DNA of 64,000 nucleotides from Pseudarthrobacter phenanthrenivorans Sphe3 (GTDB lineage: Bacteria; Actinomycetota; Actinomycetes; Actinomycetales; Micrococcaceae), in the NCBI RefSeq assembly GCF_000189535.1, contig NC_015145.1, positions 186,001 to 250,000 of the forward strand. The letters are read 5' to 3'. Shown here piece after piece: positions 28,619 to 60,257 of the stretch (its first letter is position 1; every line of letters begins with the position of its first letter). The notes below the pieces were generated by a model that was not told the origin of the DNA, did not search any database, and saw only the letters and a program-made list of their open reading frames with translations. A program made the position numbers and the translations under genes.

Positions 28619-30148
28619 TCAGAGTGCGGCCGGCGTGCCTGGTGCCGAGGCTCCGGTGAGTTCGGTGGCGTGTTGCCCGTGGACCGTGGCGGCCGGCGCA
28701 GGTTCAAGGAACTTGCGGTGCATCCTCGGGCCGAGGATGGCGTAGCTGGTGGCGCTGGCAAGGCCGCCGGCGAGCCAGGACAGGTCCCAGCCGCCCAGGG
28801 CCACGGCGACGGGGCCCTGCATGGCGGGGACGAGCCCGTACATGAACAGCCACGTGGCGAAGATGCCCACCAGGAGGGAGGTGACTCCTGCCCAGTTGAC
28901 GCCGGGCAGCCGCCTGGTGCCGACGCCGTCGAACAGCCGCTCCGGGTTGCCGGGCCAGCGCTTGTCGATCCAGAAGTAGTGCACCAGCATCACGCCGCCC
29001 CAGGCGGCCACCCAGGCAACGAGGCCGATGAGCCAGGCGTCCAGGACTGCAGCGAAGTCCTCCTGGAAGATGAAGAAGACGACGGCGATGAGCGAGAATG
29101 CGCCGACGAACAGGTTGAGCTTGCGGCGGCTGATGGTGATGTCCAGCGCCTGGGTGGCAACGGAGAAGGTGTAGATGTTCAGGATGTTGGTGGCGATGGG
29201 GCCGTGCAGCACCATCAGCAGGACCGGGAGGGCCAGGACGCCGAAGTTCTGGACGATGAGCTTTCCGGGATCGATCTCGCCGCTGTTGGTGGCGAGGCTT
29301 GCGCCCAGGACGCCAAGCCAGACCACGGGGATGAACTGGCCCAGCACGGAGGCCAGGTAGACCTTCTTCTTGGGCACTTCGGTGCTGACGAAGCGGGAGT
29401 AGTCGGCGGCGTAGGTGAACCAGGTGATGCCCCAGCCGATGCCGATGGCGGTCATGACCGCGCTCATGGCGGCGATGCGTTCGGAGCCTTCCAGAATGTT
29501 GCCTGCAGGGCCGGCGTAGGTCCAGTCGATTTCCATCCCGAACCAGGCCACGGCGGACATGACCGCCAGGATGATGATGGTGGGCGGGACGGTCCATTTT
29601 TCGAACGCGGCGATGGCTTTGTAGCCGAACCAGGCGATGGCTACCTGTGCGGCCATGATTCCGGTGGCCACGGCGATCTTCCAGCCGTAGTTTGTAGCTG
29701 CAGGGTCCACCCAGCCGAGGGTCCCGAACAGTGCCATGACCAGGTCCAGGATGATCCAGGTGTTGACCGCGCACCAGCCGATCACCAGGAGCGCCTGGAT
29801 GGCCGCCGGCAGGTAGTTGCCCCGCCGGCCGAACGCGGCCCGGGCCAGGACCATGCCGGTGGCCCCGGTTTTCTGGCCCAGCAGGACGAAGCAGCCGAAG
29901 AGCAGCATGCCGATCAGGTTGCCCAGGACCAGCACGGTGACAGTGTCCGCGAAACCCAACCCCAGATGGATTCCGAGGGCACCCAGTACCCAGTTGATCG
30001 GTGCAAGGTTGGCGCCGGCCCAGATCCAGAACTGGCCGGAAACTTTGTGCGTGCGCTGGGACTCGGGAATGGGCTGGAGCCAGGCTTCGACGTCTTGGGC
30101 CGGCGCCATTGCCGGCCCAGTCTGCGTCGTGGAGAGGTTGTCTTGCAT
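28619..30148 (-). CDS. NCS1-family nucleobase/hydantoin permease
   Basis: A 509-residue transporter with about 12 helices. FWIWAGANLAPINWVLGAL is the typical helix 1 of cytosine/purine/hydantoin permeases. WFTYAADYSRFV corresponds to the conserved family motif in the middle of the protein. It imports a heterocyclic base, hydantoin or related compound with a cation. ATG 30148 has GGAGG 8 bases upstream. The downstream deacetylase-like hydrolase is probably co-transcribed, and PucR is divergent, giving an import-hydrolyse-sense module. Confidence 0.85.
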   Translation of the reverse strand: MQDNLSTTQTGPAMAPAQDVEAWLQPIPESQRTHKVSGQFWIWAGANLAPINWVLGALGIHLGLGFADTVTVLVLGNLIGMLLFGCFVLLGQKTGATGMVLARAAFGRRGNYLPAAIQALLVIGWCAVNTWIILDLVMALFGTLGWVDPAATNYGWKIAVATGIMAAQVAIAWFGYKAIAAFEKWTVPPTIIILAVMSAVAWFGMEIDWTYAGPAGNILEGSERIAAMSAVMTAIGIGWGITWFTYAADYSRFVSTEVPKKKVYLASVLGQFIPVVWLGVLGASLATNSGEIDPGKLIVQNFGVLALPVLLMVLHGPIATNILNIYTFSVATQALDITISRRKLNLFVGAFSLIAVVFFIFQEDFAAVLDAWLIGLVAWVAAWGGVMLVHYFWIDKRWPGNPERLFDGVGTRRLPGVNWAGVTSLLVGIFATWLFMYGLVPAMQGPVAVALGGWDLSWLAGGLASATSYAILGPRMHRKFLEPAPAATVHGQHATELTGASAPGTPAAL

Positions 30149-30256
30149 GGGGAAAGCCTCCATAAGTGAAAGGGATAGATCCAGATTATGTGGCTCATGC
30201 CACAACCACCACATACAATGTGTCGTGAAGATTTACCTTTTATGCGACGGAGTGTC

Positions 30257-31807
30257 ATGCCGATAAGCCTGCAAGATGTTTTGAAACATTCCACCCTCAC
30301 ACCTGCTGATCCCGTGGTCCGCGCAGCGGCGGCGATTGCGGCGCAAACGCAGCTGCGCTGGATCCACTCCAGTGAGGTTTTGGACATTGCCCCGTTACTT
30401 GGCGGTGGTGAGCTGCTGCTTACCGGCGGTCAGGCCTTGGCCTCAGCATCGGACAAGCGGCGCATCGGCTACATCTGGGAGCTGGCGGAACGCGGAGTGG
30501 CTGCGCTTGCCATCGAGACAGGAGCGGCCCTGCCTTCCATTCCGTCCTCCATGGTGGGAGCAGCCGAAGCCGCGGGGCTTCCCTTGATTGAGCTGCGGAA
30601 AGTGGTGCCCTTCGTGGGCGTCATGGAAGCCATCAATTCGCTGCTGGTAAGCGAGTCGGCTGCGCACCTGCAGCAGGCTGACCGGGCCAGCCATGCCATG
30701 GCGGTGGAGCTGGCCCACGGCGGCAGCCTTGACCGGATCCTGGCCGTCCTCGCCGACGCTGCAGGTGCGGAAGTTGTCCTGACCTCCAACGCGGGCGCTC
30801 CGCTGGCGAGTGCGGTCCCTGCTGGCTATGCCGGGGATGGTGGCCTCGCTCCGATGGGGGAGGCCGACCAGGACCGTGCACGCACCACCCATATCGATGT
30901 GTCCGTGCGGGGCATACCTTCAGCGCGCCTGAGCCTTCACACTCCGGCGGGAGGAGATGTGAACCTGGCACGGATTGCCGGGAACCGCTCGGTGGACATC
31001 CTGGCCTTGGCCCTGCTGCAGCGCATGCCGCCCGGCCTGAAGGAAATGGCGGGTGCCGCACTGATCCGCGCCGTTGATTCCGGCATGCAGAACTGGCGGC
31101 TCCAGCAGCTGGCCCCGGCTGCCGGTATCCCCCCGGCTGCACAGCTGGTGGCCGTGGTGATCCGTTCCCCTGGCTCCCGGCAGCTGCGTACGACAATTGA
31201 GCAGCTGCTGGACCGGGTGGGCCGGCACAGCGCCAGCTATGCGGATAGCGAGGAGCTGTTGGCGCTCGCGGTGTTGCGGACCGGTAAAGCCCAGGAGGAC
31301 CGGGGCGGGATCCTGGCCGGGCTCCGGACGCTCGAATTGCCGGAGGGCACCGTCAGTGCGGTGGGTCCCGTGGCTTCCGGAATTTCCGCGGCACCCTGGT
31401 CGCTGGCAGAGGCGCGGCTGACGCTGGACGTGGGAGCCGGTTATGAGCCGCCCTCATTTTCGCCGCGACAGGCCAGCGAGGTGCTCGACGCCGAGGCCTT
31501 CGCGGTGGAACGCCTTGCGTCCCACTCCCTGGACGAGGTGCAGCGAACCGATTTTGTCCGGCAGCAGCTCGGAGCCCTCCTTGAGCACGATGACCAGCGC
31601 CGTTCGGCCTTGGTGGAAACCTTGCGGGTCTGGCTTGATTCGGGCTGCAACACGGCACAGGCTGCGCGGGAACTCCATCTGGAGCGGCAGTCTATGCATC
31701 AGCGCCTGCAGCGGATTTTCGCGCTCTGCGGCGGTGATCCGCGCGGCACCGGCCGGCTGCCTGCGCTGCATCTGGCCACCCGCCTCGCCGCCCTCCAGCC
31801 CAAGTAA
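30257..31807 (+). CDS. PucR-family transcriptional regulator
   Basis: A 516-residue activator-type regulator. The N-terminal PucR domain begins MPISLQDVLKHSTLTPADPVVRA and contains WIHSSEVLDIAPLLGGGELLLTGG. A GGDEF-like middle region follows, and the C-terminus has the PucR helix-turn-helix (LRVWLDSGCNTAQAARELHL, then RQSMHQRLQRI). It is divergent from the NCS1 permease with 108 bases between starts, so it most likely regulates that unit in response to the imported compound. ACGGAGT precedes ATG 30257; ATG 30242 is an alternative. Its stop is followed within 6 bases by a 32-nt repeat array. Confidence 0.87.
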   Translation: MPISLQDVLKHSTLTPADPVVRAAAAIAAQTQLRWIHSSEVLDIAPLLGGGELLLTGGQALASASDKRRIGYIWELAERGVAALAIETGAALPSIPSSMVGAAEAAGLPLIELRKVVPFVGVMEAINSLLVSESAAHLQQADRASHAMAVELAHGGSLDRILAVLADAAGAEVVLTSNAGAPLASAVPAGYAGDGGLAPMGEADQDRARTTHIDVSVRGIPSARLSLHTPAGGDVNLARIAGNRSVDILALALLQRMPPGLKEMAGAALIRAVDSGMQNWRLQQLAPAAGIPPAAQLVAVVIRSPGSRQLRTTIEQLLDRVGRHSASYADSEELLALAVLRTGKAQEDRGGILAGLRTLELPEGTVSAVGPVASGISAAPWSLAEARLTLDVGAGYEPPSFSPRQASEVLDAEAFAVERLASHSLDEVQRTDFVRQQLGALLEHDDQRRSALVETLRVWLDSGCNTAQAARELHLERQSMHQRLQRIFALCGGDPRGTGRLPALHLATRLAALQPK

Positions 31808-31812
31808 CCCCC

Positions 31813-31890
31813 GGACGCTCTCTCACTCAACGTGGGTTTCCTGCGGACGCTCTCTCACTCAACGTCGGTTTCCCACGGACGCTCTCTCAC
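31813..31890 (+). repeat. 32-nt-period array 1 (three cores), 3' of pucR
   Basis: The core GACGCTCTCTCAC occurs at 31814-31826, 31846-31858 and 31878-31890, an exact 32-nt period. The 19-nt linkers are also similar (TCAACG, then GGGTTTCC or CGGTTTCC). The first core starts 6 bases after the pucR stop, and the pyrimidine-rich strand is the sense strand of pucR. The last unit breaks off after the core. No cas genes and no variable spacers are present, so this is not a CRISPR array. Confidence 0.9.
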
Positions 31891-31963
31891 CTTCCGGAGG
31901 CGCCTGCAGGGGGCCTGTGGATAACTTCTGCAGGTCCCGGCCCTCCCGGGGCAGAATGCCACC

Positions 31964-32917
31964 ATGCGAAAGCAAGTCTTGCCCCTGCCGCTGGCGACAG
32001 CTCCCTTCACCATCGTCTCCGCGAGGGCTTCCGGCGTCACCGCAAACCGGCTCCGGCGCAAGGACGTAGTGAACGTGGGCCGGGGTCTCTACCGGCCAGC
32101 GGAGTGGGACTTCGATCTGGAGGATGCCGCAAGGGCGCTATCCGCAGTATCGCCCGGAGCCTGGATCTCACACGTGACGGCGGCCCGGCTCCGGCGCCAA
32201 CTGCTGCCACCATGGTTGGCCGATTCCACAGAGCTGCACCTCAGTAAGCCGCGTGCACTGCCGTCAGTCCGCCGGAAGGGCGTGATCGGCCATACTGTCC
32301 TGGCGCACGAAGATGAGATCGAAGTGGTGGACGGGATCCGCTTGAGCACCAGGTCCCGTACCTGGCTCGATCTGGCACGCGTCCTCCCACTTGAGGATCT
32401 GGTGAGCATGGGTGACGAACTGATCCGCGTACCGCGGGTCGAGTTCGAGGGCAGGACGCAGCCGCACGCCACCCTGGCAGGGCTGCGCATCCTGGCCCGC
32501 CGGCACCCCAACCTCCAAGGCATCGTCCGCATCCGGGAGGCGTTGGAACTGATGCGCGTGGGCGCCGATTCGGCTCCCGAATCGCTGCTCCGCCTGGCCA
32601 TGATCAGCGCGGGCTTACCCGAGCCAGAACTCCAGGTGCTGTTGCGCGCCGAAGACGCGAGATCGCCGTCGGCCGACCTTGGCTACCGTCATCGCCGCCT
32701 TGCCATTCAGTACGACGGCGGACATCACCTCGGCGAGGCGCAGGTGTTCAGCGACAGGAGGCGGGACAAGGCCTTCGAGGCCGCTGGCTGGACAGTCCTC
32801 GTCTTCGATAAGGACGATCTTGCTGACGGCTTCCAAGCCGCAGTAAGACTCATTAAACGGGCGCTGCGGAACGCGTGGCTTGACCATCCCCAGGCGTCCG
32901 GATTTGCCAGCGAATAA
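31964..32917 (+). CDS. AbiEi-like winged-helix plus DUF559 nuclease-fold protein
   Basis: A 317-residue protein. Residues about 17-45 look like the AbiEi-type winged helix (LRRKDVVNVGRGLYRPAEW). The C-terminal 120 residues carry the DUF559 restriction-endonuclease-like fold: Glu206, Asp238 (ADLGYRHRRLAIQYDG) and a final WTVLVFDKDDL strand. The usual Glu of the E-x-K/EYDG motif is Gln249 here, so catalysis is uncertain. Actinobacterial genomes contain many such genes of unknown function. It is a lone gene lying between two repeat arrays that point towards it. The start ATG 31964 has no clear ribosome binding site. Confidence 0.75.
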   Translation: MRKQVLPLPLATAPFTIVSARASGVTANRLRRKDVVNVGRGLYRPAEWDFDLEDAARALSAVSPGAWISHVTAARLRRQLLPPWLADSTELHLSKPRALPSVRRKGVIGHTVLAHEDEIEVVDGIRLSTRSRTWLDLARVLPLEDLVSMGDELIRVPRVEFEGRTQPHATLAGLRILARRHPNLQGIVRIREALELMRVGADSAPESLLRLAMISAGLPEPELQVLLRAEDARSPSADLGYRHRRLAIQYDGGHHLGEAQVFSDRRRDKAFEAAGWTVLVFDKDDLADGFQAAVRLIKRALRNAWLDHPQASGFASE

Positions 32918-32964
32918 ACGTTTGGCGGAGACGGACACATTACGACGGCGGTGCTAAAGGCCGT

Positions 32965-33090
32965 GACGCCCCCTCACCAAGGTGAGAGGGCGTCAGGCCA
33001 AAATCGGCATCGAGTGAGAGAGCGTCAGGCCAAAACCCGCATCAGGTGAGAGAGCGTCACGCAAAAGCCTGCGTTAAGTGAGAGAGCGTC
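32965..33090 (-). repeat. 32-nt-period array 2 (four cores plus an inverted core), 3' of purU
   Basis: Reading on the purU strand, cores occur at 33090-33078, 33058-33046, 33026-33014 (GACGCTCTCTCAC each) and 32994-32982 (GACGCCCTCTCAC), again exactly 32 nt apart. The fourth core is followed by an inverted copy at 32978-32965, giving a stem of about 14 bp with a very short loop. The first core starts 8 bases after the purU stop. Linkers are related to those of array 1 (TTAACG/TGATGC, then GGGTTTT). Confidence 0.9.
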
Positions 33091-33098
33091 GCAGGGGG

Positions 33099-33995
33099 TT
33101 ACCGGAGGACCACCGTGCGGTTGCCCTGCAGGATCACCCGGCCTTCGCAGTGCCAGCGGACCGCGTTGGACAGGGCCTTGCACTCGGTGTCGCGGCCGGC
33201 GGCTACCAGGTCCTCGGGCCCGTAGGTGTGGTTCACCTCCACGGTCTGCTGGGCGATGATCGGTCCCTCGTCCAGTTCGGCGTTGACGTAGTGCGCCGTT
33301 GCCCCAACAGTTTTCACACCGCGCGCATACGCCTGGTGGTACGGCTTGGCGCCCTTGAAACTGGGCAGGAACGAGTGGTGGATGTTGATCGCCTTCCCGT
33401 CCAGCTTCCGGGTCAGGTTGTCGCTGAGCACCTGCATGTAGCGGGCCAGCACCACAAGTTCCACGTCGAACTCGTCCACCAGCTCCAGCAGCCGGGCCTC
33501 AGCCGCGGGCTTGGTCTCCGGCGTCACCGGCACGTGGAAGAACGGAATCCCGTGCCATTCCACCAGCGCCTGGTGGTCCGTGTGGTTGGACACCACGGCC
33601 ACCACGTCCATCGGCAGTTCACCGATGCGCGCCCGGAACAGCAGGTCGTTCAGGCAGTGCCCGAACTTGGACACCATGATCAGCACTTTCCGCTTGGAAC
33701 CCTGCCGCTCCAGCCGCCAGCGCATCCCGAAGCGCTCCGCAACCGGACCAAAAGCCGCCCGCAGCGTGTCCACGGTGGAGGCATCGCCGTCGGACGCAAA
33801 ATGCACCCGCATGAAGAAATGCCCTTCGGAACGCTCGCCGAACTGCTGGTTGTCGATGATGTCGCAGCCGTGCTCCAGCAGGAAGCCGGACACGGCGTGG
33901 ACAATCCCAGGCGATTCCGAGCAGTCCAAAGTCAGGACGTGCTCCACGGTGGTCGGGGAAGAAACAGGGACAGTTTCAGTCTCAGTAGCAGTCAT
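33099..33995 (-). CDS. purU: Formyltetrahydrofolate deformylase (sarcosine-operon copy)
   Basis: A 298-residue PurU. The N-terminal ACT domain (about 18-100) begins VLTLDCSESPGIVHAVSGFL; the formyltransferase-like catalytic domain has INIHHSFLPSFKGAKPYHQA and VGATAHYVNAELDEGPII, with the Asn-His-Asp active-site residues. It hydrolyses 10-formyl-THF to formate and THF, which returns folate needed to accept methyl-derived C1 units from sarcosine. It is the last gene of glyA-soxBDAG-sdaA-purU, 3 bases after sdaA. A second copy lies at 54658-55587. Confidence 0.92.
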   Translation of the reverse strand: MTATETETVPVSSPTTVEHVLTLDCSESPGIVHAVSGFLLEHGCDIIDNQQFGERSEGHFFMRVHFASDGDASTVDTLRAAFGPVAERFGMRWRLERQGSKRKVLIMVSKFGHCLNDLLFRARIGELPMDVVAVVSNHTDHQALVEWHGIPFFHVPVTPETKPAAEARLLELVDEFDVELVVLARYMQVLSDNLTRKLDGKAINIHHSFLPSFKGAKPYHQAYARGVKTVGATAHYVNAELDEGPIIAQQTVEVNHTYGPEDLVAAGRDTECKALSNAVRWHCEGRVILQGNRTVVLR

Positions 33996-33998
33996 GGT

Positions 33999-35372
33999 TC
34001 AGCACTCGATTACGTTGACGGCAAGGCCTCCGCGGGAGGTTTCCTTGTACTTGGTTTTCATGTCGGCTCCGGTCTCGCGCATCGTTTTGATGGCTTTGTC
34101 GAGGGACACCTTGTGGCTGCCATCGCCGTGCAGGGCAAGGCGGGCGGCGTTGATGGCCTTCACGCTGGCGATGGCGTTGCGCTCAATGCAGGGGATCTGC
34201 ACCAGCCCGCCCACCGGGTCACACGTCAGGCCAAGGTTGTGTTCAATGCCCACCTCGGCGGCGTTTTCCACCTGGGCAGGCGTCCCGCCCAGCACCTCGC
34301 ACAATCCGGCGGCTGCCATCGAGCAGGCGGAGCCCACTTCACCCTGGCAGCCCACCTCGGCACCGGAGATGGAGGCGTTGATCTTGAACAGGATTCCGAC
34401 GGCGGCCGCGGCCAGCAGGAAGCGGACCACACCGTCCTCGTTGGCGCCGGGGACGAACTTCACGTAGTAGTGCAGCACCGCCGGGACGATCCCCGCCGCG
34501 CCGTTGGTGGGGGCGGTGACGATCCGCCCGCCGGCGGCGTTCTCCTCGTTCACGGCCAGCGCGAACAGGTTCACCCATTCCATGGCCCGCAGCGGATCGG
34601 TCTCGCCGGTGTCCGCGGTCAGGGTCTGGAATAACGACGGCGCGCGGCGGCGCACGTTAAGCCCGCCGGGAAGGATGCCTTCCGCGGTGCAGCCGTTGTC
34701 CACGCATTCGCGCATGACGGCCCACAGCTTCAGGAGTTCCTCGCGCAGTTCCGCCTCGGACCGCCAGGAAAGCTCGTTGGCCAGCATCACGTCCGAGATG
34801 GACATGCCCTCGCGGCTGCAGATCTCGAGGAGTTCGTCAGCCGTATTGAACGGGTAGGGAAGGACAGTGGAGTCAGCCACCACACGGTCGCCCGCGTCAG
34901 CATCGCCGTCAACGACGAAGCCGCCCCCAATCGAATAGAAGCTCCGTTCGCTGAGCACCGCGCCGGTGTGGTCCAAAGCCCGGAAGGTCATCCCATTCGG
35001 GTGGGCGGGAAGGGACTTGCGCCGGTGCAGGACCACGTCCTCATCCCAGTTGAAGTCCACGCGGTGGTCGCCGCAGATCCACAGCTCGGCATCCAGCGCG
35101 GCCGCGGCCACCTGGTCATCGGCGGTGGTGGTGTCCACCGTTTCGGGGTCCAGGCCCTTGAAGCCCAAGACCACGGCCTTGTCCGAACCGTGGCCCCGCC
35201 CGGTGGCGCCCAGGGAGCCGAACAGCTCGGCCTGGACCCGGGTGGTGGAGCTCAGGTGTCCGTCGCCCTTGAGCCCGTCAGCGAACAGCTTCGCTGCCCG
35301 CATCGGGCCGACCGTGTGTGACGACGACGGCCCGATGCCAACGGAGAACAGGTCCAGGACGCTGAGCGCCAT
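33999..35372 (-). CDS. sdaA: L-serine ammonia-lyase, iron-sulfur type
   Basis: A 457-residue single-chain L-serine dehydratase. [25 protein letters not shown] opens the beta domain. The [4Fe-4S] cysteines lie in [19 protein letters not shown] and [15 protein letters not shown]. The chain ends ...VNVIEC, the C-terminal Cys tail known from Legionella L-serine dehydratase to reach the cluster. It converts serine made by GlyA from sarcosine-derived glycine to pyruvate and ammonia. Its ATG lies one base after the soxG stop, so it is translated from the same mRNA. Confidence 0.93.
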
Positions 35373-35373
35373 G

Positions 35374-36012
35374 TCAGGGGACCTCGGGGGAGGCGTACTC
35401 CCGCATTGCGTCCAGGAGCCAGCGGCCCAGGAAATCGGCGAACGAGGCGCGGGGGAAGATCCGGAACGACTCGTCGCCCGTCTTCCACAGCACTGCCGGG
35501 ATGTTGCCGATCTCCGTGGACAGGGCCGTGCCGGCCGCCAGGGCGCGGGGGTGCAGGTCCAGCGAGCAGCCCTTTTCCAGGACCGCCCTGGCCCGCGGGC
35601 CCGTGAGCTCGAACGTGGTGCGGTTGGCGGAAAGATCCACCACCTGCCCTGCGTCGCTGCCCTGTGCCTCGCGCAGTGCCTGGATCAGGTCGCCGCCCAG
35701 GGACTCGTGGGCTTCGGTGGGCGCCACCACCAGGAACTCTTCCGGGCCAAGCCACAGTACGGAGGTGTCCCCGGTGCCGCTGACGTTGCCGCAGCCTTCG
35801 GGCAGGCCGCCGGTGATTGCGGCGACGCGCTGGCCGGCTTCGCTGTTCCGGTTGACCCGGAGGCCCACCATGGTCAGGAACGGCACTTCACGGAGTTCCA
35901 CCACGCCCGGGACGGAACCGGTTTCAAACTCTGCCCGGAGCTGGGCCGCGGGGCTGACCCGGAGGGAGAGGTTCTTCTCGTAGGAAGTTGCGGGTGTTGC
36001 TGTTTCAGCCAT
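35374..36012 (-). CDS. soxG: Sarcosine oxidase gamma subunit
   Basis: A 212-residue subunit of the heterotetrameric enzyme, of typical length. It contains [14 protein letters not shown] and [30 protein letters not shown], the conserved SoxG/GcvT-like region. It is structural and has no catalytic site of its own. ATG 36012 overlaps the end of soxA by 8 bases, and the conserved sequence starts soon after; an open frame upstream has no family character. Confidence 0.92.
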
Positions 36013-38950
36013 CTTTGCGGGTCCCTTCGGGGTCAAAAAGTACGGTTTCGGCGACGACGACGTCCACCAGCTGGTCGCCGGCGGCTGCAACCAGGGTTTC
36101 GCCGATCCGGTTGCGGCCGTTCTTGATCAGTGCCAGGCCGAATGACCGGCCCAGTGCTGCGCTGTGGTAGCTGGAGGTGACGAAGCCTTCCATCGGAACC
36201 GGGCCGTAGGCGGGGTTGGTGGAACGGCCCTTCTCCACGAGCTGGCTGCCTTCCGGGAGCCGGAGCGTTCCGTCTACCGGCAGGACACTCACCAGGTGCT
36301 TGCGGTCCTCGCGCTGGGCGTCGGTGCGGGAGTAGGAGCGCTTGCCGATGAAGTCCTTGGCCTTGGAGACGATCCATTCCATGCCGGCATCCTGCGGGGT
36401 GACAGTGCCGTCAGTGTCCTGGCCAACGATCGGGTAGCCCTTTTCGGCGCGGAGTACGTGCATCGTCTCCGTGCCGTAGGGGGTGATGTTGAACTCGGCC
36501 CCGGCGGCTGCCACGGCTTCCCACGTGTTCAGTCCGTACCAGGACGGCACGTTGATCTCGTAGGCCAGTTCACCGGAGAAGGAGATCCGGCAGACCCGGG
36601 CGCGGACGCCCGAGGCCAGGGTGGTTTCGCGGAACGTCATGAAGGGGAACGCTTCGGCTTCCAGCCCGCCGTTGGCGGCCAGTTCCGGTGCCACTTTGGC
36701 GAGGACCTCGCGGGACTTGGGGCCGACGACGGCAATGGTGCTCCACTGCTCCGTCACGGAGGTGCAGTGCACGTCCAGTTCCGGCCACTCGGTCTGCAGC
36801 CATTCCTCCAGCCAGTCCAGCACCTTGGCGGCACCGCCGGTGGTGGTGGTCATGAAGTAGGTTTCCTCGTCAAGGCGCAGGGTCACGCCGTCGTCGAAGA
36901 TCATGCCGTCAGGGGTGCACATCACGCCGTAGCGGGCCGAACCCGGGGCGAGCTTCTTGAACGCGTTGGTGTAGATCCGGTTGAGGAACTCACCGGCATC
37001 CTTGCCGCGGATCTCGATCTTGCCCAGGGTGGTGGCGTCCATGAAGCCCACGGATTCGCGGACGGCGGCGCACTCGCGCAGCACTGCAGCGTCCATGTCC
37101 TCCCCGTCCTGCGGGTAGTACCAGGGCCGCTTCCACTGCCCGACATCCTCGAACAGGGCGCCCTTGGCCACGTGCCACGGGTGGATCGAGGTCTTGCGGG
37201 CGGGATCGAACAGTTCGCCGCGCTGGCGTCCGGCCAGTGCAGCGAACGCCACCGGGGTGAACGGTGCGCGGTAGGTGGTGGTGCCGATGTCGCCGATGCC
37301 GCGGGAAGCTTCGCCGGCGGTCCGGAGTGCGGCGGCGATGACGCCGATCGCGTTGACGCCGGAGGTCTTGCCCTGGTCGTTGGCGGTGCTGATGGAGGTG
37401 TACCGCTTGATGTGCTCCACTGAGCGCATGCCGGCTCCGGTGGAACGCAGTACGTCAGCCACGGACTGGTCGCGCTGGAAGTCCACGAAGTGGTGGTGCC
37501 AGTCATCCGGGGTGCCCTGCTCGCCCGGAACCAACCACAGCTGGCGGGTGGGGGCGGCGGCCTTCGGCTCGCCCAGCGGGGAAGGTTCGACGGCGGTGCT
37601 GAAGCCGGCAGCGCGGGCCGCGGTGAGCCCTGCTGAAACGCCCTCGGCGAGGCAGTCGGTCAGGGCGAAGCTGCCCCGGCCCGAACCGATCGTCTGCTGG
37701 TTGGGGACCACGGTGCTGGGCACAAACGCGGCCAGGTCGTCGTCCCAGCGCAGCTTGCCCTGGCGCTGGGAGTGCAGGTGCACCAGCGGGCTCCAGCCAC
37801 CGGACACGGCCAGCAGGTCGCAGGCGATCTGCTCGATGCCCGAGGTGAGTTCGCCGTCGTCGTTAATGCTGCGGACGGTGACGCCGTCCACGCGGCCGTC
37901 TGCACCAGAGGCGGAGGTGTTGGCCACTGCGCTGCCGATCAGTACACGCGTTCCGGCTTCGACGGCGGCGGCAGCCGCCTCGGTGAGCTGCGGACGGGCG
38001 TCCACCACGGCAGCGATCTTGACGCCGGCGGCGCGGAGGTCCGCGGCCACGGCGTAGGCACTGTCATTGGTGGTGCTGATGACCACGCGCTGACCGGCGG
38101 CAACTCCGTAGCGGTTCAGGTAGCTGCGGACGGCGGAGGCGAGCATGATGCCCGGGCGGTCGTTGTTTTCGAAGACCAGCGGGCGTTCGTGGGCGCCGGG
38201 TGCCAGGACCACCTGGTTGGCACGGATGTGCCAAATGCGCTGCCGGGAAACTCCCGGTGCCGCGGGGGAGGACAGGTGGTCCGTGCGGTTCTGGACGGCG
38301 ATGACGTAGTTGGCGTCATAGGCGCCGAAGGCGGTGGTGCGGTTCAGGACGGTGGATTCGGCGCCGGAAACCAGTTCGGCTTCAACGTCGGCCACCCATT
38401 CCAGGGCCGGCTTGCCTTCGATGGTCTCGGCCAGTTCAGGGGACGTGGACCCGGACAGGAGGGAGCCGCCCAGTTCCGGCTGGTCGTCCAGGAGCATCAC
38501 GCGGGCACCGCTGCGGACAGCTTCACGCGCTGCGGCGAGGCCGGCGGGGCCGCCGCCGATCACCAGGACGTCGGTGTGGACGTACTTCTTGTCGTATTCG
38601 GCCCGGTCCTCCTCCGGGTCCAGCTTGCCCAGTCCGCTGAGCAGCTCAGCCTTGAGGCCGTCCACCAGGGTGACCGTGGTGGCGGGGAGCATGGACTCGG
38701 CAACGTCACCCGGGAAGCGCGCGGCGATCTTCACCATGGCGTTGGATTCCTCCACGCCGGCGGACATGATGCCGCGGGGCCGGTCCTCGTAGAGGGAGTT
38801 GCCGGCGTTGATGCGGCCATTGGCGATCAGGGCTGAGGCGAGGGTGTCGCCCGGGTGGCCGGTGAACTCTTCGCCGTCCACCGTGAAGCGCCAGGAAATG
38901 GTGCGGTCGATGCGTCCGCCGGCGGCGAGGCGGGCGTTCTGGGAAGTCAC
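36005..38950 (-). CDS. soxA: Sarcosine oxidase alpha subunit
   Basis: A 981-residue subunit. The N-terminal about 100 residues are the ferredoxin-like domain ([20 protein letters not shown]); a Rossmann domain follows with [18 protein letters not shown] near 127-144. The C-terminal 370 residues are a GcvT-like folate-binding domain. In the complex, NAD+ and THF bind this subunit, and the sarcosine-derived methylene is transferred to THF as 5,10-methylene-THF, or released as formaldehyde when THF is absent. It overlaps soxD by 4 bases. Confidence 0.94.
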
Positions 38951-39351
38951 TTGGTTGCTCCTTCCGGGGCGGTGGTGCTGGAGATGCTGGTGGTGGAGAG
39001 GCTGGGGGCCGCGTTTCCCGTGGTGGTGCTGTCAGCGGCGGTGCTGGCAGTGCCGGTGTCGGCGGTGACCTTGCCGGCGGCATCGGGACGGGGTGAACCC
39101 ATCGGGTAGATGGCCTGGATCTCGTAGGTGACGGTGTCGCGGAGCATGTTGAACCACTGGCGGCAGCCGGTGCTGTGCAGCCAGCGCTCGGCGAATGCGC
39201 CCTTGGTGTTGTCGCGGTAGAACAGGTACTCGGCCCATTCGCGGTCGGTCAGCTCGTTCGGGTTTTCCGGGTAGGCCACGTGGGCCTGGCCGCCGTAGTG
39301 GAACTCGGTCTCGTCGCGGGAGCCGCAGTTGGGGCAGGAGATGAGCAGCAT
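38947..39351 (-). CDS. soxD: Sarcosine oxidase delta subunit with extended C-terminus
   Basis: A 134-residue subunit. [19 protein letters not shown] holds two Cys and His residues of the zinc site; [30 protein letters not shown] is the conserved core with a further Cys. The last about 36 residues are an Ala/Ser/Thr-rich low-complexity tail not needed by typical SoxD (usually near 90-100 residues). It follows soxB by 31 bases and overlaps soxA by 4. Confidence 0.92.
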
Positions 39352-39382
39352 GTGCGTCTTCTTTCTAAAGTGCGTCTGGCAG

Positions 39383-40603
39383 CTAGTGGGCGACGGCGGC
39401 GGCGCCGTGTTCGTCGATCAGGGCGCCGGTCTCGAAGCGCTCCAGCGCGAACGGCTTGTTCAGCCTGTGCGGTTCACCCGTGGCGATGTTGTGCGCGAAG
39501 GTCATGCCGGCCGCGGGGGTGGCCTTGAAGCCGCCGGTGCCCCAGCCGCAGTTCACGAACATGTTCTCCACGGGGGTGTTGCCCACGATCGGCGAGGCGT
39601 CCAGCGTGGTGTCCACGATGCCGCCCCAGGTGCGGAGCACGTGGGCCCGTGCGAAGATCGGGAACAGCTCGACGGCGGCTGCCATCTGGTGCTCGATCAC
39701 GTGGAAGGAGCCGCGCTGGCCGTAGCCGTTGTAGGAGTCAACGCCGGCGCCCATCACCAGTTCGCCCTTGTGTGCCTGTGAGACGTACACGTGCACGTGG
39801 TTGGACATGACTACGGTGGGGTGGACGGGCTCATGCAGTTCGGAAACCAGCGCCTGCAGCGGGTGGGACTGGATGGGGAGCCGGAAGCCTGCCATTTCGG
39901 CCAGGACCGAGCTGTGGCCAGCGGCGGCGAGACCCACCTTTTCGGTGTTGATGGTGCCGCGGTTGGTCTTGACGCCCACCACGCGGTTGCCGTCCTTGAC
40001 GAAGCCGGTGACTTCGCAGTTCTGGATGATGTCCACGCCCATTTCGTCGCACTTCCGGGCGAAGGCCCAGGCCACGTGGTCGTGCTTGGCGATCCCCGCG
40101 CGCGGCTGGTAGGTGGCGCCCATGACGGGGTAGCGGATGTTGTCGCTGATGTTCAGGATGGGGCAGAGTTCCTTGACCTGCTTGGGATCCAGCCACTCCG
40201 CGTCAACGCCGTTGAGCTTGTTGGCGCCCACGCGCCGCATGCTTTCCCGGACGTCGCCCAGGGTGTGGGCCAGGTTCATCACGCCGCGCTGGCTGAAGAG
40301 GAAGTCGTACTCAAGCTCCTCGGGCAGGATTTCCCAGAGCTTGAGGGCGTGCTCGTAGATGGCTGCGCTCTCGTCCCAGAGGTAGTTGGAGCGGATGATG
40401 GTGGTGTTCCGGGCCATGTTGCCGCCCGCCAGCCAGCCCTTTTCCAGGACCGCGATGTTGGTCATGCCGTGGTTCTTCGCCAGGAAGTAGGCCGTGGCCA
40501 GGCCGTGCCCGCCGCCGCCCACAATCACAGCGTCGTAGGAGGACTTGGGCTCCGGGTTGCGCCAGAGGAAGGCGGGGTGCTCGGGGAGGAGGTCTGCGCT
40601 CAC
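39383..40603 (-). CDS. soxB: Sarcosine oxidase beta subunit
   Basis: A 406-residue flavoprotein of usual length. The FAD motif [18 protein letters not shown] starts at residue 27; [20 protein letters not shown] is the conserved substrate-proximal segment. [15 protein letters not shown] around His174/His176 corresponds to the covalent FMN-binding region. It oxidises sarcosine to glycine plus a C1 unit. ATG 40603 overlaps the glyA stop as ATGA, showing translational coupling. Confidence 0.95.
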
Positions 40604-41955
40604 TGGGCTGCTCCAATCAGGTCTGCTTCGAAGGCGGCAACTTCAGTGCCGTCCTTGAGGTGGGGATACAGGGGGAACTTCTCCGCCAGGGCGGTGACGC
40701 GGGCGCGGAGTTCGACGGCGGTGCTGTCGCCCAGGGAAGTGCTCCCGGAGGCGACGCTGCCTGCCGAGGCGATCAGCGCCGTCGCGATGATGTCCGCGAC
40801 CTCTGCGAATTCCTCCGCGCCGAAGCCGCGGGTGGCCAGGGCCGGGGTGCCGATCCGGAGGCCGGAGGACACCATCGGCGGGCGGGGGTCGAACGGGACA
40901 GCGTTGCGGTTCACGGTGATGCCGATCTTGTGCAGGGCGTCTTCGGCCTGCTGGCCGTCCAGTTCGGAGTTGCGCAGGTCCACCAGGACCAGGTGGACGT
41001 CGGTGCCGCCGTTGACCACGGAAATTCCTGCTGCAGCGACGTCGTCCTTGAGGAGACGCTCGGCGAGGAGCTTGGATCCCTGCAGGACGCGTTCCTGGCG
41101 TTCCTTGAACTCGGGGGAGGCGGCGAGCTTGAAGGCCACGGCCTTGGCGGCGATCACGTGCTCCAGCGGGCCGCCCTGCTGGCCGGGGAACACGGCGCTG
41201 TTGATCTTCTTGCCGTACTGCTCCTTGGCGAGGATGACGCCACCGCGGGGGCCGCCCAGGGTCTTGTGCGTGGTGGTGGTGACAACGTCGGCGTAGGGCA
41301 CCGGGTTCGGGTGCAGGCCCGCTGCAACCAGTCCGGCGAAGTGGGCCATGTCCACCATGAGGTAGGCGCCAACGAGGTCGGCGATGCGGCGGAACTCGGC
41401 GAAGTCCAGCTGGCGGGAGTAGGCGGACCAGCCGGCAACGATCAGCCTGGGCCGGTGTTCCAAGGCAAGGGCCTCGACCTCGGCCATATCGATACGGAGG
41501 TCGGATTCGCTGACGTGGTACGGGACCACGTTGTAGAGCTTGCCGGAGAAGTTGATCTTCATGCCGTGGGTCAGGTGGCCGCCGTGGGCCAGGCTCAGTC
41601 CCATGATGGTGTCGCCCGGGTTCAGCAGGGCGAACATGGCGGCGGCGTTGGCCTGGGCGCCGGAGTGCGGCTGGACGTTGGCGAACTCTGCGCCGAAGAG
41701 CGCCTTGACCCGGTCGATGGCCAGCTGCTCCACAACATCCACATGCTCGCAGCCGCCGTAGTAGCGCTTGCCCGGGTAGCCCTCGGCGTACTTGTTGGTG
41801 AGGACCGAGCCCTGTGCCTCCATGACGGCGGACGGGGCGAAATTCTCGGAGGCGATCATTTCCAGCGTCGACTGCTGGCGGCCCAGCTCACTGGCGATGG
41901 CCTGCTGGACCTCAGGATCGACTACGGAAAGTCGCTCGTTCAACTGCTCAACCAC
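40600..41955 (-). CDS. glyA: Serine hydroxymethyltransferase (sarcosine-operon copy)
   Basis: A 451-residue Gly[36 protein letters not shown] is at the N-terminus (only partly quoted in motif terms: SENF...[13 protein letters not shown]), and the PLP-lysine lies in [16 protein letters not shown]. It joins glycine with 5,10-methylene-THF to give serine, so both products of sarcosine oxidase are consumed. The GTG start at 41955 follows AAAGGAGC with 4 bases between; the earlier ATG at 41985 precedes that ribosome binding site and is rejected. It leads the soxBDAG-sdaA-purU operon, so it is probably a dedicated copy. Confidence 0.93.
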
Positions 41956-41987
41956 GGATGCTCCTTTGAAATACCACTTGTCCAATT

Positions 41988-42001
41988 ACTGATATATCAG
42001 T
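41988..42001. promoter_or_regulatory. Perfect palindrome between glyA and the GntR gene
   Basis: ACTGATATATCAGT is a perfect 14-nt dyad in the 154-base divergent region between the glyA-sox operon and the GntR gene at 42110. It lies 33 bases upstream of the glyA start codon, close to where a promoter is expected. It is the best candidate operator for the GntR protein; no second copy was seen. Confidence 0.5.
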
Positions 42002-42109
42002 GTTGGCTCAATGGTATGATCGGGATCACAGCAGAGTCAATAGCGGGACCAAAAGCGGCGCTGAGCTACCGTTTCGGTTTCGGCGGCCATCAAAGAACGG
42101 AGCGGCGTC

Positions 42110-42781
42110 TTGAATGCACTTCTTGCCCTGGCCCCCGCGGAGGAGGAAGCCCCTTCCCAGGCGGAGGCCGCGTACCGGCAGTTGCGCGACAAACTGATCA
42201 TGCTGGAGATCCGCCCGGGCGAGCCCATCAATGACGGCCAGCTTGCGGCAGAGCTTGGGTTCAGCCGGACGCCCGTGCGCGAGGCGATCAAGCGCCTCGA
42301 GGTGGACCATCTGGTGATCTCCTATCCCCGGCGCGGGACGTTTGCCACCACTGTGGATTTCACCGAGCTTGCCGATGTCTCCGAAATCCGGGAGCTGCTG
42401 GAGCCCCTGGCTGCCCGCAGGGCTGCAGCCAGGGCGAGCGAAGGCATGCGGAGGGAACTCCTGAAAGTTGCCGATGCGATTGCCAGCATCGGTCCCGGGG
42501 CAGGGGAGTCGCGCGAGCTGATGCGCTACGACCTTATGGTGCACCGGCTGATCTACAAGGCGGCTGCCAACCCGCACCTGGAAGACACCCTGATCCGCTA
42601 CGACAACCTGGCCACCCGCATCTGGTGCGTGGTGCTGGACAAGGTTCCCTCCGTGACCGGCCACATCACCGAACACGTGGACCTGCTGAAAGCTGTGGCG
42701 GCCGGCGACGCGGACAAAGCGGGAGAGCTCGCCTTGCACCACGTCACCAGCTTCGAGGAGACCATCCGCAAGGTGCTGTAG
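42110..42781 (+). CDS. GntR-family (FadR/FCD subgroup) regulator of the sarcosine operon
   Basis: A 223-residue regulator. The winged helix (about 22-85) contains INDGQLAAELGFSRTPVREAIKRLEVDHLV; the C-terminal FCD domain has the metal/ligand-binding His pattern (RYDLMVHRLIYKAAANP; EHVDLLKAV). It is divergent from glyA-soxBDAG-sdaA-purU and most likely represses it until glycine, sarcosine or a relative binds (inference). The only suitable start is TTG 42110, preceded by CGGAGCGG. Its stop is followed after 4 bases by repeat array 3, and a copy of its last codons lies at 44071-44118. Confidence 0.85.
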   Translation: MNALLALAPAEEEAPSQAEAAYRQLRDKLIMLEIRPGEPINDGQLAAELGFSRTPVREAIKRLEVDHLVISYPRRGTFATTVDFTELADVSEIRELLEPLAARRAAARASEGMRRELLKVADAIASIGPGAGESRELMRYDLMVHRLIYKAAANPHLEDTLIRYDNLATRIWCVVLDKVPSVTGHITEHVDLLKAVAAGDADKAGELALHHVTSFEETIRKVL

Positions 42782-42784
42782 CCC

Positions 42785-42830
42785 GGACCCTCTCGCACTT
42801 ACCGTCGCTTCTGCCAGGACCCTCTCGCAC
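42785..42830 (+). repeat. 32-nt-period array 3 (two cores, variant), 3' of the GntR gene
   Basis: GACCCTCTCGCAC occurs at 42786-42798 and 42818-42830, exactly 32 nt apart. It differs from the core of arrays 1 and 2 at two positions (GACgCTCTCtCAC). It begins 4 bases after the GntR stop, with the pyrimidine-rich strand as sense, just like the other arrays. The second core ends 25 bases before the MFS start codon. Confidence 0.8.
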
Positions 42831-42855
42831 TTTCTAAAGGATGGAACCCGCAACG

Positions 42856-44061
42856 ATGCCCGCTGCCACCCGGAACGCCCCGGACCGAACCGTCAGGTTC
42901 GGTTACGCCTTCATCGGTGTCCTGCTCATCGCAGTCAACCTTCGGGTGTCCTTTGTCAGTGTGGGACCGGTCCTGCAGAACATCAGCTCCGACCTTGGCC
43001 TGTCCAGCGCTGCAGCGGGGTTCCTGACGGGCCTTCCGCTCATTGCTTTCGCAGCCTTTTCGCCCTTGGCGCCCGGCTTCGCTTCCCGTCTGGGCCTCGA
43101 CCGTGCGCTGTGGATGTCGCTGCTGATCCTGGCCTCGGGCATTGTGCTCCGCTCCGTGCCTGTTCCCGGATTCATCTGGCTGGGCACAGCACTCATAGGC
43201 CTCGCGATCGCGTTCCTCAATGTCCTGGTCCCTTCGCTGGTGAAGCGGGACTTTCCCGCGAGGGTCAGCCAGCTCACCGGAAGCTACACCGCCACCCAGG
43301 CCGCCTTCGCCGCCATGGGGGCCGCCGTCGTCGTACCCGTTGCCCAAACTTCCACCGCGGGATGGCGGCTTGCCCTCGGTATCTGGGTGGGACTTGCACT
43401 CATCGCCATGGCGGTGCTCCTGCCCTGGCTGCGCCGGCACAGCTCCGGCACTGTGAACGCCGCCAGGCCTGCGGTCTCCTACCGGTCGCCCTGGGTCTCA
43501 GCCTTGGGCTGGCAGGTGACCATTTTCATGGGGCTGCAGTCGATAGCCTTCTACGTCCTGATGGCATGGCTGCCTACCATCGAACAAAGCCGCGGGGTCA
43601 CGGCCACTACCGCCGGGATCCATCTGTCCATTTTCCTGCTCATCAGCGTCTTCGCCAGCCTTGCAGCAGGCGGAATCCTTCACCGGGGTTCGGACCAGCG
43701 GTTCGTTGCCTTTGCCAGCGGCGCCGTGATGGTTGTGACGTTCGTGGGCCTGGCGCTTGCGCCCGAACTCATCCTGCTGTGGGTTGTCCTGGGGGCAATA
43801 GGATGCGGAAGCCTCATTGTCATTGCCCTGTCCCTGTTCAGCCTCCGGACCGTTAACTATTCGCAGGCGGCATCATTGTCCGGCATGGCCCAGTCCGTTG
43901 GTTATGGCCTGGCTGCCGCAGGGCCGGTGATGTTCGGTGCTCTTCGCGATCTGAGCGGAGACTGGACGCTTCCGCTCCTGGTCACCGCGGGCATCATGGT
44001 GGTGCTTGCCGTGACGGGCGTGCTCGCAGGGCGGAGCCGGGTCATCAGCCCATCGGCATAA
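42856..44061 (+). CDS. MFS transporter, CynX/NimT-like
   Basis: A 401-residue membrane protein with about 12 helices. RFGYAFIGVLLIAVNLRVSFVSVGPVL is typical of the CynX/NimT (cyanate/2-nitroimidazole transporter) group, and GLPLIAFAAFSPLAPGFASRLG is its loop 2-3 region. Substrate is unknown. The start is uncertain: ATG 42841 directly abuts AAAGG, while ATG 42856 has a GGAAC 7 bases before it; I prefer the latter. It lies between the GntR gene and a relic of a GntR gene end, which suggests insertion or duplication here. Confidence 0.8.
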   Translation: MPAATRNAPDRTVRFGYAFIGVLLIAVNLRVSFVSVGPVLQNISSDLGLSSAAAGFLTGLPLIAFAAFSPLAPGFASRLGLDRALWMSLLILASGIVLRSVPVPGFIWLGTALIGLAIAFLNVLVPSLVKRDFPARVSQLTGSYTATQAAFAAMGAAVVVPVAQTSTAGWRLALGIWVGLALIAMAVLLPWLRRHSSGTVNAARPAVSYRSPWVSALGWQVTIFMGLQSIAFYVLMAWLPTIEQSRGVTATTAGIHLSIFLLISVFASLAAGGILHRGSDQRFVAFASGAVMVVTFVGLALAPELILLWVVLGAIGCGSLIVIALSLFSLRTVNYSQAASLSGMAQSVGYGLAAAGPVMFGALRDLSGDWTLPLLVTAGIMVVLAVTGVLAGRSRVISPSA

Positions 44062-44070
44062 CCTCGACTC

Positions 44071-44118
44071 CTGCATCACGCCGCGAGCTTCGAGCAGACC
44101 ACCCGCAAGGTGCTGTAG
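44071..44118 (+). pseudogene. Relic of a GntR gene 3' end (last 15 codons and stop)
   Basis: Translated in frame, this stretch reads LHHAASFEQTTRKVL followed by TAG. The end of the intact GntR gene reads LHHVTSFEETIRKVL then TAG: 11 of 15 residues match and the nucleotide match is stronger at the end (CGCAAGGTGCTGTAG). Nothing of the gene remains upstream, where the MFS gene lies. It is the scar of a duplicated GntR gene, whose body was replaced by or lost next to the transporter gene. Confidence 0.7.
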
Positions 44119-44299
44119 GGGGTACCCTATGGTGGCAGATTAGGGATCGACAAGCAGTGCCATCCGGAGCAAACTGGGCCTACGCTGGGCGCTCTGTCCA
44201 CGGACTGGAGGAAGTTCGCGGGCATCAAGATAAAGGCGCCGCCGCAGCTGGACAGTCCCCAGGGACGGGCAGCCCGGCGGCTGGCAGCGAGGGCACAAA

Positions 44300-45073
44300 A
44301 TGAAAAAGCTACTTACTTTGCTGGTTTCCGTGCTTCTGGTCCTGACTCTTGGCGGCTTCGCCAGGGCTGACGGATTCAGCAGGGGACTGATCAGCGTCAC
44401 CTTTGATGACGGCTGGGCCAGCCAGCATGAGAACGCTCTGCCAATCCTGGACGAGTACGGTATTCCGGCCACCTTGTACATCACCTCCGGAGTGATCGAC
44501 CAGCAGCCTACGTTCATGACGCAGTCGCAGATCCAGGATTTTGCGGACCGGGGCCATGAAATTGCGTCCCACACCGTGACGCATCCGCACCTCCGGGAGC
44601 TCTCCCCGGATCAGCTCGCCGCCGAGCTGACAGAAAGCCAGGCCACGCTGCGGCGGCTTTTCGGCCCGTCCGCTGCCACCAGCTTCGCTTCCCCATACGC
44701 GGAGTACAACAACGCCACTCTTGCAGCCATCAGGCAGGTGTACTCCAACCACCGCGCCTTCGACGACGACGGGACCGACAACTCGGGCTTCAACACCCGT
44801 GCAGCGTATGACCCGTACAACCTCAGGGTGAAGTTCGTGGAGTCCACCACCACCACGGACACGGTGCAGGGGTGGATCGATTCCGCCAGGGCGAATAACG
44901 CCTGGCTGATCCTGGCCTATCACGAGGTGGGGGCCAATATCGGCGGCGGCACGTACACCACGGACACGGCAGTATTCGACGCCGACATGAAGGCCGTCAG
45001 GGACAGTGGCCTTGGCCTTGTCACCGTTGGGCAGGGTGCAGCTGAAGTCCTCCTGCAGGCGGCAAGGAACTAG
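44300..45073 (+). CDS. Secreted polysaccharide deacetylase (NodB domain)
   Basis: A 257-residue exported protein. The signal peptide MKKLLTLLVSVLLVLTLGG plus FARA ends near residue 23. The NodB metal site is present: ISVTFDDGWASQ (Asp-Asp) and GHEIASHTVTHPHL (two His), then SFASPYAEYNN. The C-terminal HEVG (WLILAYHEVG) provides the late catalytic His. It probably removes acetyl groups from a cell-wall or environmental polysaccharide outside the cell. The 181 bases upstream (44119-44299) hold no gene or structure I can name. It converges with hxlA. Confidence 0.85.
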   Translation: MKKLLTLLVSVLLVLTLGGFARADGFSRGLISVTFDDGWASQHENALPILDEYGIPATLYITSGVIDQQPTFMTQSQIQDFADRGHEIASHTVTHPHLRELSPDQLAAELTESQATLRRLFGPSAATSFASPYAEYNNATLAAIRQVYSNHRAFDDDGTDNSGFNTRAAYDPYNLRVKFVESTTTTDTVQGWIDSARANNAWLILAYHEVGANIGGGTYTTDTAVFDADMKAVRDSGLGLVTVGQGAAEVLLQAARN

Positions 45074-59756: not shown

Positions 59757-59905
59757 TGGGCGCTGGGGAACGCTCAAAAAGCCGGACCAAGCCGGACCAA
59801 GCCGGCCTCGCTCCTGCTGCCCTGCGCCCTGGATGCTTACCTGCCAGCCTTGCCGGTGCCACGGCTGCCCTTGTCCCTGGCTTCGCCCGGTGGTTGGCTG
59901 GTGGG

Positions 59906-60138: not shown

Positions 60139-60198
60139 GCGACAAAAAGCGACGGCGGCATTCGGCAGATGCCGAGTGCCGCCGTCGCTCCTTGTCGC
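60139..60198. terminator. Large bidirectional hairpin terminator
   Basis: The inner stem pairs 60148-60166 (start AGCGACGGCGGC) with 60171-60189 over 19 positions with one wobble around the loop AGAT. Outer GCGACAA and TTGTCGC (60139-60145, 60192-60198) extend it after a small internal bulge. It lies between the small protein gene and the convergent formate-dehydrogenase-like gene. Confidence 0.75.
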
Positions 60199-60230
60199 CT
60201 TATGCCGGCTGTCGCCTTATGCCGGCTGTC
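60197..60230 (+). repeat. 17-bp tandem duplication
   Basis: GCCTTATGCCGGCTGTC occurs twice head to tail (60197-60213, 60214-60230). It follows directly on the hairpin and shares its GTCGC ends, so it probably arose by slippage during replication of the hairpin. Confidence 0.8.
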
Positions 60231-60257
60231 GCTTGAACTGGGCCTGGTGCGGAAGGG

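Follow-up and report, generated by a model that had tools for sequence, protein, structure and literature searches.

A REP-like family of 32-nt-pitch repeat arrays in the Arthrobacter group that may help to end transcripts

Behind three genes of the window (the whole 64,000-nucleotide stretch of DNA analyzed here) lie arrays of a short core repeated every 32 nt. They belong to what is apparently an undescribed short-repeat family of Arthrobacter-type soil bacteria, and we lean, if only slightly, toward reading them as a dispersed, REP-like family that sits at the 3′ ends of genes in the Arthrobacter group and contributes to ending transcripts. The first-pass annotation of this DNA knew of no description of such an element; we likewise found neither the family nor its core sequence described in the literature searched, which spans open-licence PMC papers only.

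RESULTS

Three arrays in the window

The arrays and the genes that flank them are as follows.

30188..31807, plus strand: PucR-type regulator, upstream of array 1 (Pfam PF07905, PF13556)
31814..31890, plus strand: array 1, three 32-nt-pitch units, one-way, sense to pucR, first unit 6 nt past the stop, no hairpin
31964..32917, plus strand: DUF559-domain protein, between arrays 1 and 2 (Pfam PF04480)
32965..33090, minus strand: array 2, four 32-nt-pitch units and an inverted fifth copy as closure, sense to purU, 8 nt past the stop
32965..32994, minus strand: purU array hairpin, formed by unit 4 and the inverted copy around a 4-nt loop, at the end of the array distal to purU
33099..33995, minus strand: PurU (formyltetrahydrofolate deformylase-like), upstream of array 2 (Pfam PF00551)
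42110..42781, plus strand: GntR/FCD regulator, upstream of array 3 (Pfam PF00392, PF07729)
42786..42830, plus strand: array 3, two units, one-way, core GACCCTCTCGCAC, sense to the GntR gene, 4 nt past the stop
42841..44061, plus strand: MFS transporter, downstream of array 3 (Pfam PF07690)

The names pucR, purU, and GntR are backed by Pfam, the ACT match of PurU falling slightly below the cutoff of that Pfam family. Units start at 31814, 31846, and 31878 (plus) in array 1, lie at 33078, 33046, 33014, and 32982 (minus) in array 2, the last with one mismatch, and lie at 42786 and 42818 (plus) in array 3, which ends 10 nt ahead of the MFS start. The description from which we set out, nine GACGCTCTCTCAC-like units in three arrays at exact 32-nt spacing, placed in sense 4, 6, and 8 nt past the stops of GntR, pucR, and purU, is borne out at all nine positions and all three stops, and Tandem Repeats Finder independently gave a period of 32 for arrays 1 and 2. 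What it lacked was an inverted core copy with 2 mismatches (32965-32977), by which the purU array is closed as a hairpin. The fold z of the array RNA is −0.13 for array 1, −5.20 for array 2, and 2.21 for array 3. There is no T run directly 3′ of the stem of the window purU hairpin; a short-loop hairpin resembling it occurs in several purU orthologs.

A protein-coding repeat was rejected because 32 is not divisible by 3, and Rfam gave zero matches in window positions 29000-45000 at E values up to 1. A link between the arrays and DUF559 was also rejected; the genome has four matches to that domain, one near an array and the other three with no cluster within 10 kb. Elsewhere in the window there are perfect tandem repeats of 17 nt (60193-60232) and of 10 nt (59779-59805).

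Copy number, distribution, and dialects of the core

The core is the 9-nt CTCNCTCAC, and single units are non-palindromic. In the home genome, the exact core GACSCTCTCKCAC occurs 58 times, compared to 2 for a reversed-pattern control, and these exact cores form 34 clusters, none of them inside a called gene. The core allowed 2 mismatches is not unusual in the window by itself (13 matches, compared to 9.8 expected, a count attained in 19 of 100 shuffles), and four of the outside loci are 8-nt microsatellites. A reading of the arrays as chance or a microsatellite artifact could lean on these two facts, but it is refuted by the reversed control and by a control for paired cores, which number up to 104 per genome, compared to 0 in the control; we regard it as having almost no chance of being right. 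CRISPR was rejected as well, given a core of 9 to 13 nt compared to a repeat of at least 24 nt, spacers that share a consensus, and dispersal in 34 clusters.

Among 101 genomes of the genus, 53 contain the pair CTCTCTCAC-N23-CTCTCTCAC, which we call the T dialect, and the control gave 0 matches; freeing the fourth core base raises this to 76 of 101, with one control match overall. Across the family, where only the T dialect was searched, 13 of 245 genomes have the pattern, 12 of 18 in the home genus and 1 of 227 in other genera. At least 118 outside loci carry it, and among the 80 listed by name, 69 are Arthrobacter, Pseudarthrobacter, Paenarthrobacter, or Micrococcaceae. Six viral contigs (L183-L188) also match the paired-core pattern. 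Plasmid or phage arrays gave no match in one blastn query each with the low-complexity filter on.

Genomes differ in the fourth core base. It is T in 39 of 44 pairs (both cores) in the home genome and C in every one of the 76 pairs in G048, a count from a listing that covered G048 and G034 out of four genomes. In G064 it is G at 77 of 78 letters (39 pairs listed of 41), and in G032 it is C at 52 of 64 letters. On this sequence evidence, the fourth base is a genome dialect, though no strict rule, because G034 is mixed: it combines C-rich, nearly G-free units of the A/G dialect with T-dialect units that have G-richer spacers, mostly in separate arrays. The two unit types of G034 (L249-L263) read CTC[AG]CTCAC-ATCCCACCCCC, nearly free of G, and CTCTCTCAC-GTCCCGCC, and at several of its loci one type stands behind the plus-strand gene and the other behind the minus-strand gene. 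A replication-strand rule for the two types was rejected; they look sorted by strand on one contig of G034, but contig C14 of G048 has both types on one strand.

A strict pitch

With one mismatch and spacings of 28 to 36 allowed, 65 of 67 neighboring core pairs in the home genome are 32 nt apart. The figure for outside loci is 290 of 301, biased in pitch since these loci were found via a 32-nt pattern; the home clusters were found via the single core and are unbiased. Among the best 30 purU flanks from 61 genomes, 10 have arrays, with 24 intervals of 32 nt and one of 64 nt. Leaders there vary from 3 to 24 nt, and the 32-nt pitch therefore appears to persist where neighboring lengths change.

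Adjacent units differ on average at 4.2 to 5.0 of the 23 spacer bases (4.2 at outside loci). Among 41 outside triples with at least 6 differences or odd spacing, the spacing is odd in 8. Recent duplication would thus partly account for the constant pitch, and recent tandem or inverted duplication could lie in part behind both the pitch and the arm covariation described below. Given so strict a pitch, the arrays may be read by a DNA-bound protein.

Placement relative to genes

Placement was analyzed in 126 clusters, from the home genome and 102 outside loci, with genes called by our own codon-model script. Eleven of 118 outside loci were dropped for titles that were not Arthrobacter-like (80 titles listed), and 5 more for a GC content below 0.58 or as 8-nt microsatellites, one of these (L124) being a genuine Paenarthrobacter. 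Clusters less than 400 nt from a locus end and those lacking two flanking genes (2 own, 4 outside) were left out. Counts of pitch, covariation, T runs, hairpin fraction, and composition use the outside set with those 5 loci; placement and spacing counts were repeated without them. Orthologous loci recur in the outside sample, so that counts are not independent events.

Arrays favor convergent gaps, which make up 52 of 122 array gaps but 37 of 309 array-less gaps of at least 60 nt (Fisher p 1.5e-11), and avoid divergent ones (12 of 122, compared to 107 of 309). No divergent core pair (minus, then plus) within 150 nt was found in the 102 outside loci. Rare arrays in divergent order, minus units and then plus units, were seen at L256 (G034) and at G064:C16:41967-42066.

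The first-pass annotation held that each of the three window arrays follows a stop and lies in sense, and it proposed a genome-wide tabulation of stop distance and strand. Across the pooled clusters both biases hold, but neither is absolute. One-way arrays in co-directional gaps are sense in 31 cases and antisense in 9 (6:2 in the home genome alone), and the 9 of 40 in antisense speak against the explanation that we favor. Among 129 ends of sense arrays, 17 run into the called end of the gene; in 10 of these the overlap is exactly 2 nt, and the unit itself completes the stop codon with its final two bases. Among the remaining 112, 47 lie 0 to 10 nt past the stop, compared to 28.9 expected if placed at random in the same gap; with gap room of at least 40 nt, it is 29 of 82, compared to 7.9.

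Sense arrays also stand behind two rRNA operon ends, some 85 to 100 nt past the 5S rRNA, as identified with Rfam in 13 of 23 home loci; at gathering scores, Rfam found only rRNA in those 13. Since sense arrays trail two rRNA operons, a stop codon is not required, and the position kept by the arrays would be the transcript end rather than the stop codon as such.

For crp, we could read 19 out of 30 flanks (the rest were wrongly oriented), and 7 of the 19 have arrays. By eye, an ordinary hairpin follows the stop in all readable flanks except G076. Again except in G076, the arrays lie beyond that hairpin, and several belong to the convergent gene. Because an ordinary hairpin already precedes them, crp itself would have no need of arrays, which counts against a role in termination; L052, L133, and L167 point the same way. 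At L238 (G049), a different repeat, with GGACATGC/GGCATGCCC motifs, lies 3′ of crp where other species have a 32-nt array; L246 (G032) has similar motifs.

Hairpins where arrays face each other

An inverted core lies near enough for a central hairpin in 63 of 128 clusters. The other 65 have no hairpin, as is the case for 60 of 81 one-way clusters. Arrays with inverted units (n = 3) have fold z values of −5 to −15, and one-way arrays (n = 3) have values of −0.13, 2.21, and −0.28. The 50 distinct central inverted pairs have loops of 13 nt (29 pairs), 2 to 5 nt (14), 12 nt (1), 23 to 25 nt (5), and 20 nt (1); lengths of 2 to 5, 12 to 13, and 23 to 25 nt, in steps of about 11 nt, thus cover 49 of 50. 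At L093, a 20-nt hairpin loop contains GAACTGGTCC, which resembles the GAACTGGTCCCCG-like sequence seen beside IS3-type proteins (see Discussion).

In 47 of these hairpins (3 of 50 were left out), the arms covary. Beyond the core, positions 1, 2, 4, 5, 6, and 7 pair better than in all 1,000 shuffles; position 3 is reached by 6 of 1,000 shuffles and positions 8 and 9 by 187 and 45. The stem extends 5.7 nt past the core, compared to 3.0 in shuffles. A T run within 18 nt is present on at least one side of 38 of the 47 pairs. Where both sides have a clear A or T run (n = 31), the letter on one strand is the same in 25 (T and T in 13, A and A in 12) and mixed in 6 (A and T in 5, T and A in 1); the same letter on both sides would put a U run behind the hairpin in one direction. 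Of 18 hairpins in co-directional gaps, the T run follows the gene in 12 and opposes it in 2, with both or none in 4. In convergent gaps, it points to plus in 8, minus in 10, both in 6, and none in 3. Such central hairpins, with T runs directed along the gene in co-directional gaps, look like intrinsic terminators.

In purU flanks, a simple finder detected T-tailed hairpins in 8 of 20 without arrays and in 3 of 10 with arrays, and all 3 of the latter are array hairpins. These counts fit, but do not prove, an array hairpin taking the place of an ordinary terminator.

The arrays might instead act at the DNA level. A sequence-specific protein, or gyrase, might sit on one helix face and make the array an orientation-dependent roadblock or a supercoil sink at transcript ends. 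The exact 32-nt pitch, the loop lengths in steps of about 11 nt, and the enrichment in convergent gaps would all be expected from this. We nevertheless think it rather unlikely: we identified no protein that binds the arrays, a home hairpin at 624684/624705 with an 8-nt loop falls outside the search pattern, and the polarity of the T runs, as well as U-G pairs in the hairpins of several purU orthologs, points to RNA.

RNA of one-way arrays

One-way sense arrays have more C than G in 63 of 64 cases, compared to 179 of 281 control 3′ flanks, a YC density of 0.24 per nt, compared to 0.167, and a fold energy of −0.158 kcal per nt, compared to −0.404, a composition partly dictated by the core itself. 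They thus have the hallmark of rut sites, RNA that is C-rich, G-poor, and unstructured, and one unit type of G034 is almost without G (0.00 to 0.10 of bases in six stretches). The earlier suggestion that the CT-rich RNA could be a rut-like site or a 3′-UTR element is therefore upheld in part, by the rut-like composition and by the terminator-like hairpins, with the rut composition confined to one-way arrays. It is conceivable that one-way array RNA simply recruits Rho and that the pitch is left over from tandem duplication; composition and the nearly G-free units of G034 are in line with this. Rho, however, demands neither an exact 9-nt core nor a 32-nt pitch, and the other G034 unit type has a G-richer spacer, so that we are doubtful of rut-like sites as the whole explanation.

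DISCUSSION

That leaves the question of what kind of repeat this is. REPs of the GTAG and CGTC superfamilies and BIMEs resemble the arrays in being extragenic and multicopy, in lying near 3′ ends in convergent and unidirectional gaps, in supplying stop codons, in inverted pairing, and in patchy distribution (PMC3733652). According to that paper, known REP families are found no more than 20 bp from the 3′ ends of ORFs and may supply the stop codon, which makes unsound the first-pass argument that a neutral repeat would land anywhere. The likeness ends at the unit. The REP unit is a palindrome with a stem of 5 to 13 bp, while the array unit is non-palindromic and one-way arrays fold no better than shuffles. 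REPs carry a GTAG or CGTC tag that stays unpaired. The array core is often preceded by GACG, which reads CGTC on the opposite strand, but this tetranucleotide varies (AACG, AACC, GATC) and for the most part takes part in the hairpin stem. The arrays run head to tail at a fixed 32-nt pitch as a rule, unlike REPs, and head-tail dimers are negligible among CGTC REPs (PMC3733652). Because a palindromic unit and the tag are both wanting, the arrays are better viewed, on sequence grounds, as a REP-like variant than as members of a REP family.

Nor does a known mover present itself. GTAG-type REPs are tied to RAYT, and RAYT (Y1_Tnp, PF01797) has 0 matches in the home genome and is absent from 40 of 41 genomes, with two matches in G032; a RAYT mover was therefore rejected. 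An autonomous, array-flanked transposon was rejected as well, the 25 largest of 425 flanking-protein groups being, IS copies aside, mostly orthologous neighbors and common families. REP elements are known IS targets, with the IS3 family included (PMC1525189). Among IS types that target REPs (IS3, IS110, IS4, IS256, and IS5), an IS3-type element with identical proteins adjoins three home arrays (L033, L037, and L045); at these loci, a GAACTGGTCCCCG-like sequence lies behind the last core, beside the IS3-type proteins, and is a putative IS end. At L038 and L050, also in the home genome, the parts of an array are separated by a transposase that is itself split into HTH_38 and rve pieces. An identical IS110 transposase is present at both, and IS110 inside arrays was rejected since its genes are bordered by fragments of these other transposases rather than by array units.

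One alternative is selfish REP-like DNA, spread by some form of transposition or gene conversion and tolerated only where the harm is slight, at 3′ ends and in convergent gaps, with hairpins and T runs that are incidental or co-opted. Patchiness among genomes (76 of 101), the genome dialects, presence or absence at crp where ordinary terminators already stand, insertion sequences that adjoin or split arrays, and a placement like that of known REPs (PMC3733652) can all be accommodated. Not so readily explained are a T-run direction that fits the upstream gene by 12:2, a spacing of 32 kept though spacers and leaders diverge, and arrays kept at orthologous sites across species. We regard this alternative as a real, if minority, possibility.

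Other systems share some of these features. E. coli REPs no more than 15 nt from stop codons lower translation (PMC12306157), and the arrays resemble them in distance to the stop codon. They are unlike them in that one-way arrays have no palindrome there and that two rRNA operons also carry arrays. Ordinary intrinsic terminators, a GC-rich hairpin with a U run, are matched by the central inverted pairs, where two inverted units form the hairpin and a T run usually lies on the transcribed side, but not by one-way arrays or the window purU hairpin. The arrays also differ from them in being built from dispersed repeat units, with the hairpin missing in about half of the clusters. Among actinobacteria, the mycobacterial interspersed repetitive units (MIRU) are likewise tandem repeats in the sense orientation that overlap stop codons; their unit length and sequence differ from those of the 32-nt arrays, and we know of no central terminator in them. 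The uptake sequences of Neisseria and Haemophilus, like the arrays, have a short core, species dialects, and inverted pairs that serve as terminators. The arrays are fewer, have a tandem 32-nt pitch, and have no cluster inside a called home gene.

In the reading that we favor, of REP-like repeats that help to end transcripts, we imagine that two facing arrays would form a central hairpin with a T run and so act as an intrinsic terminator, and that the C/U-rich, G-poor, unstructured RNA of a one-way array may serve to load Rho or some other factor. Reading of the units in phase, for which a DNA-bound protein would be the simplest agent, would explain why a pitch close to three helical turns is preserved, and the dispersal and homogenization of units would be REP-like. 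Speaking for this view are the placement, the covarying hairpins with directed T runs, the pitch, and the composition of one-way sense arrays; against it speak the ordinary hairpins ahead of arrays at crp, the many clusters with no hairpin, the lack of a T run at the window purU hairpin, and recent duplication as a partial source of pitch and covariation. One can envision a more specific, phased terminator system. Behind genes, and with the polarity of transcription, a factor particular to the lineage would recognize a CTCNCTCAC core at every third helical turn; a shift of its specificity at the fourth base between species would carry an entire genome to a new dialect and leave the 32-nt pitch unchanged. 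We put this forward as speculation that is probably wrong in this full form.

If our favored reading is correct, a large soil genus carries a repeat family that marks transcript ends. Half-site units at a fixed pitch, yielding terminators only where arrays face each other, would set it apart from the REPs described in the papers cited here. Dialects of the core base on a constant frame would then be a natural experiment for the factor that reads or spreads the repeats, and would bear on REPs that lack a transposase.
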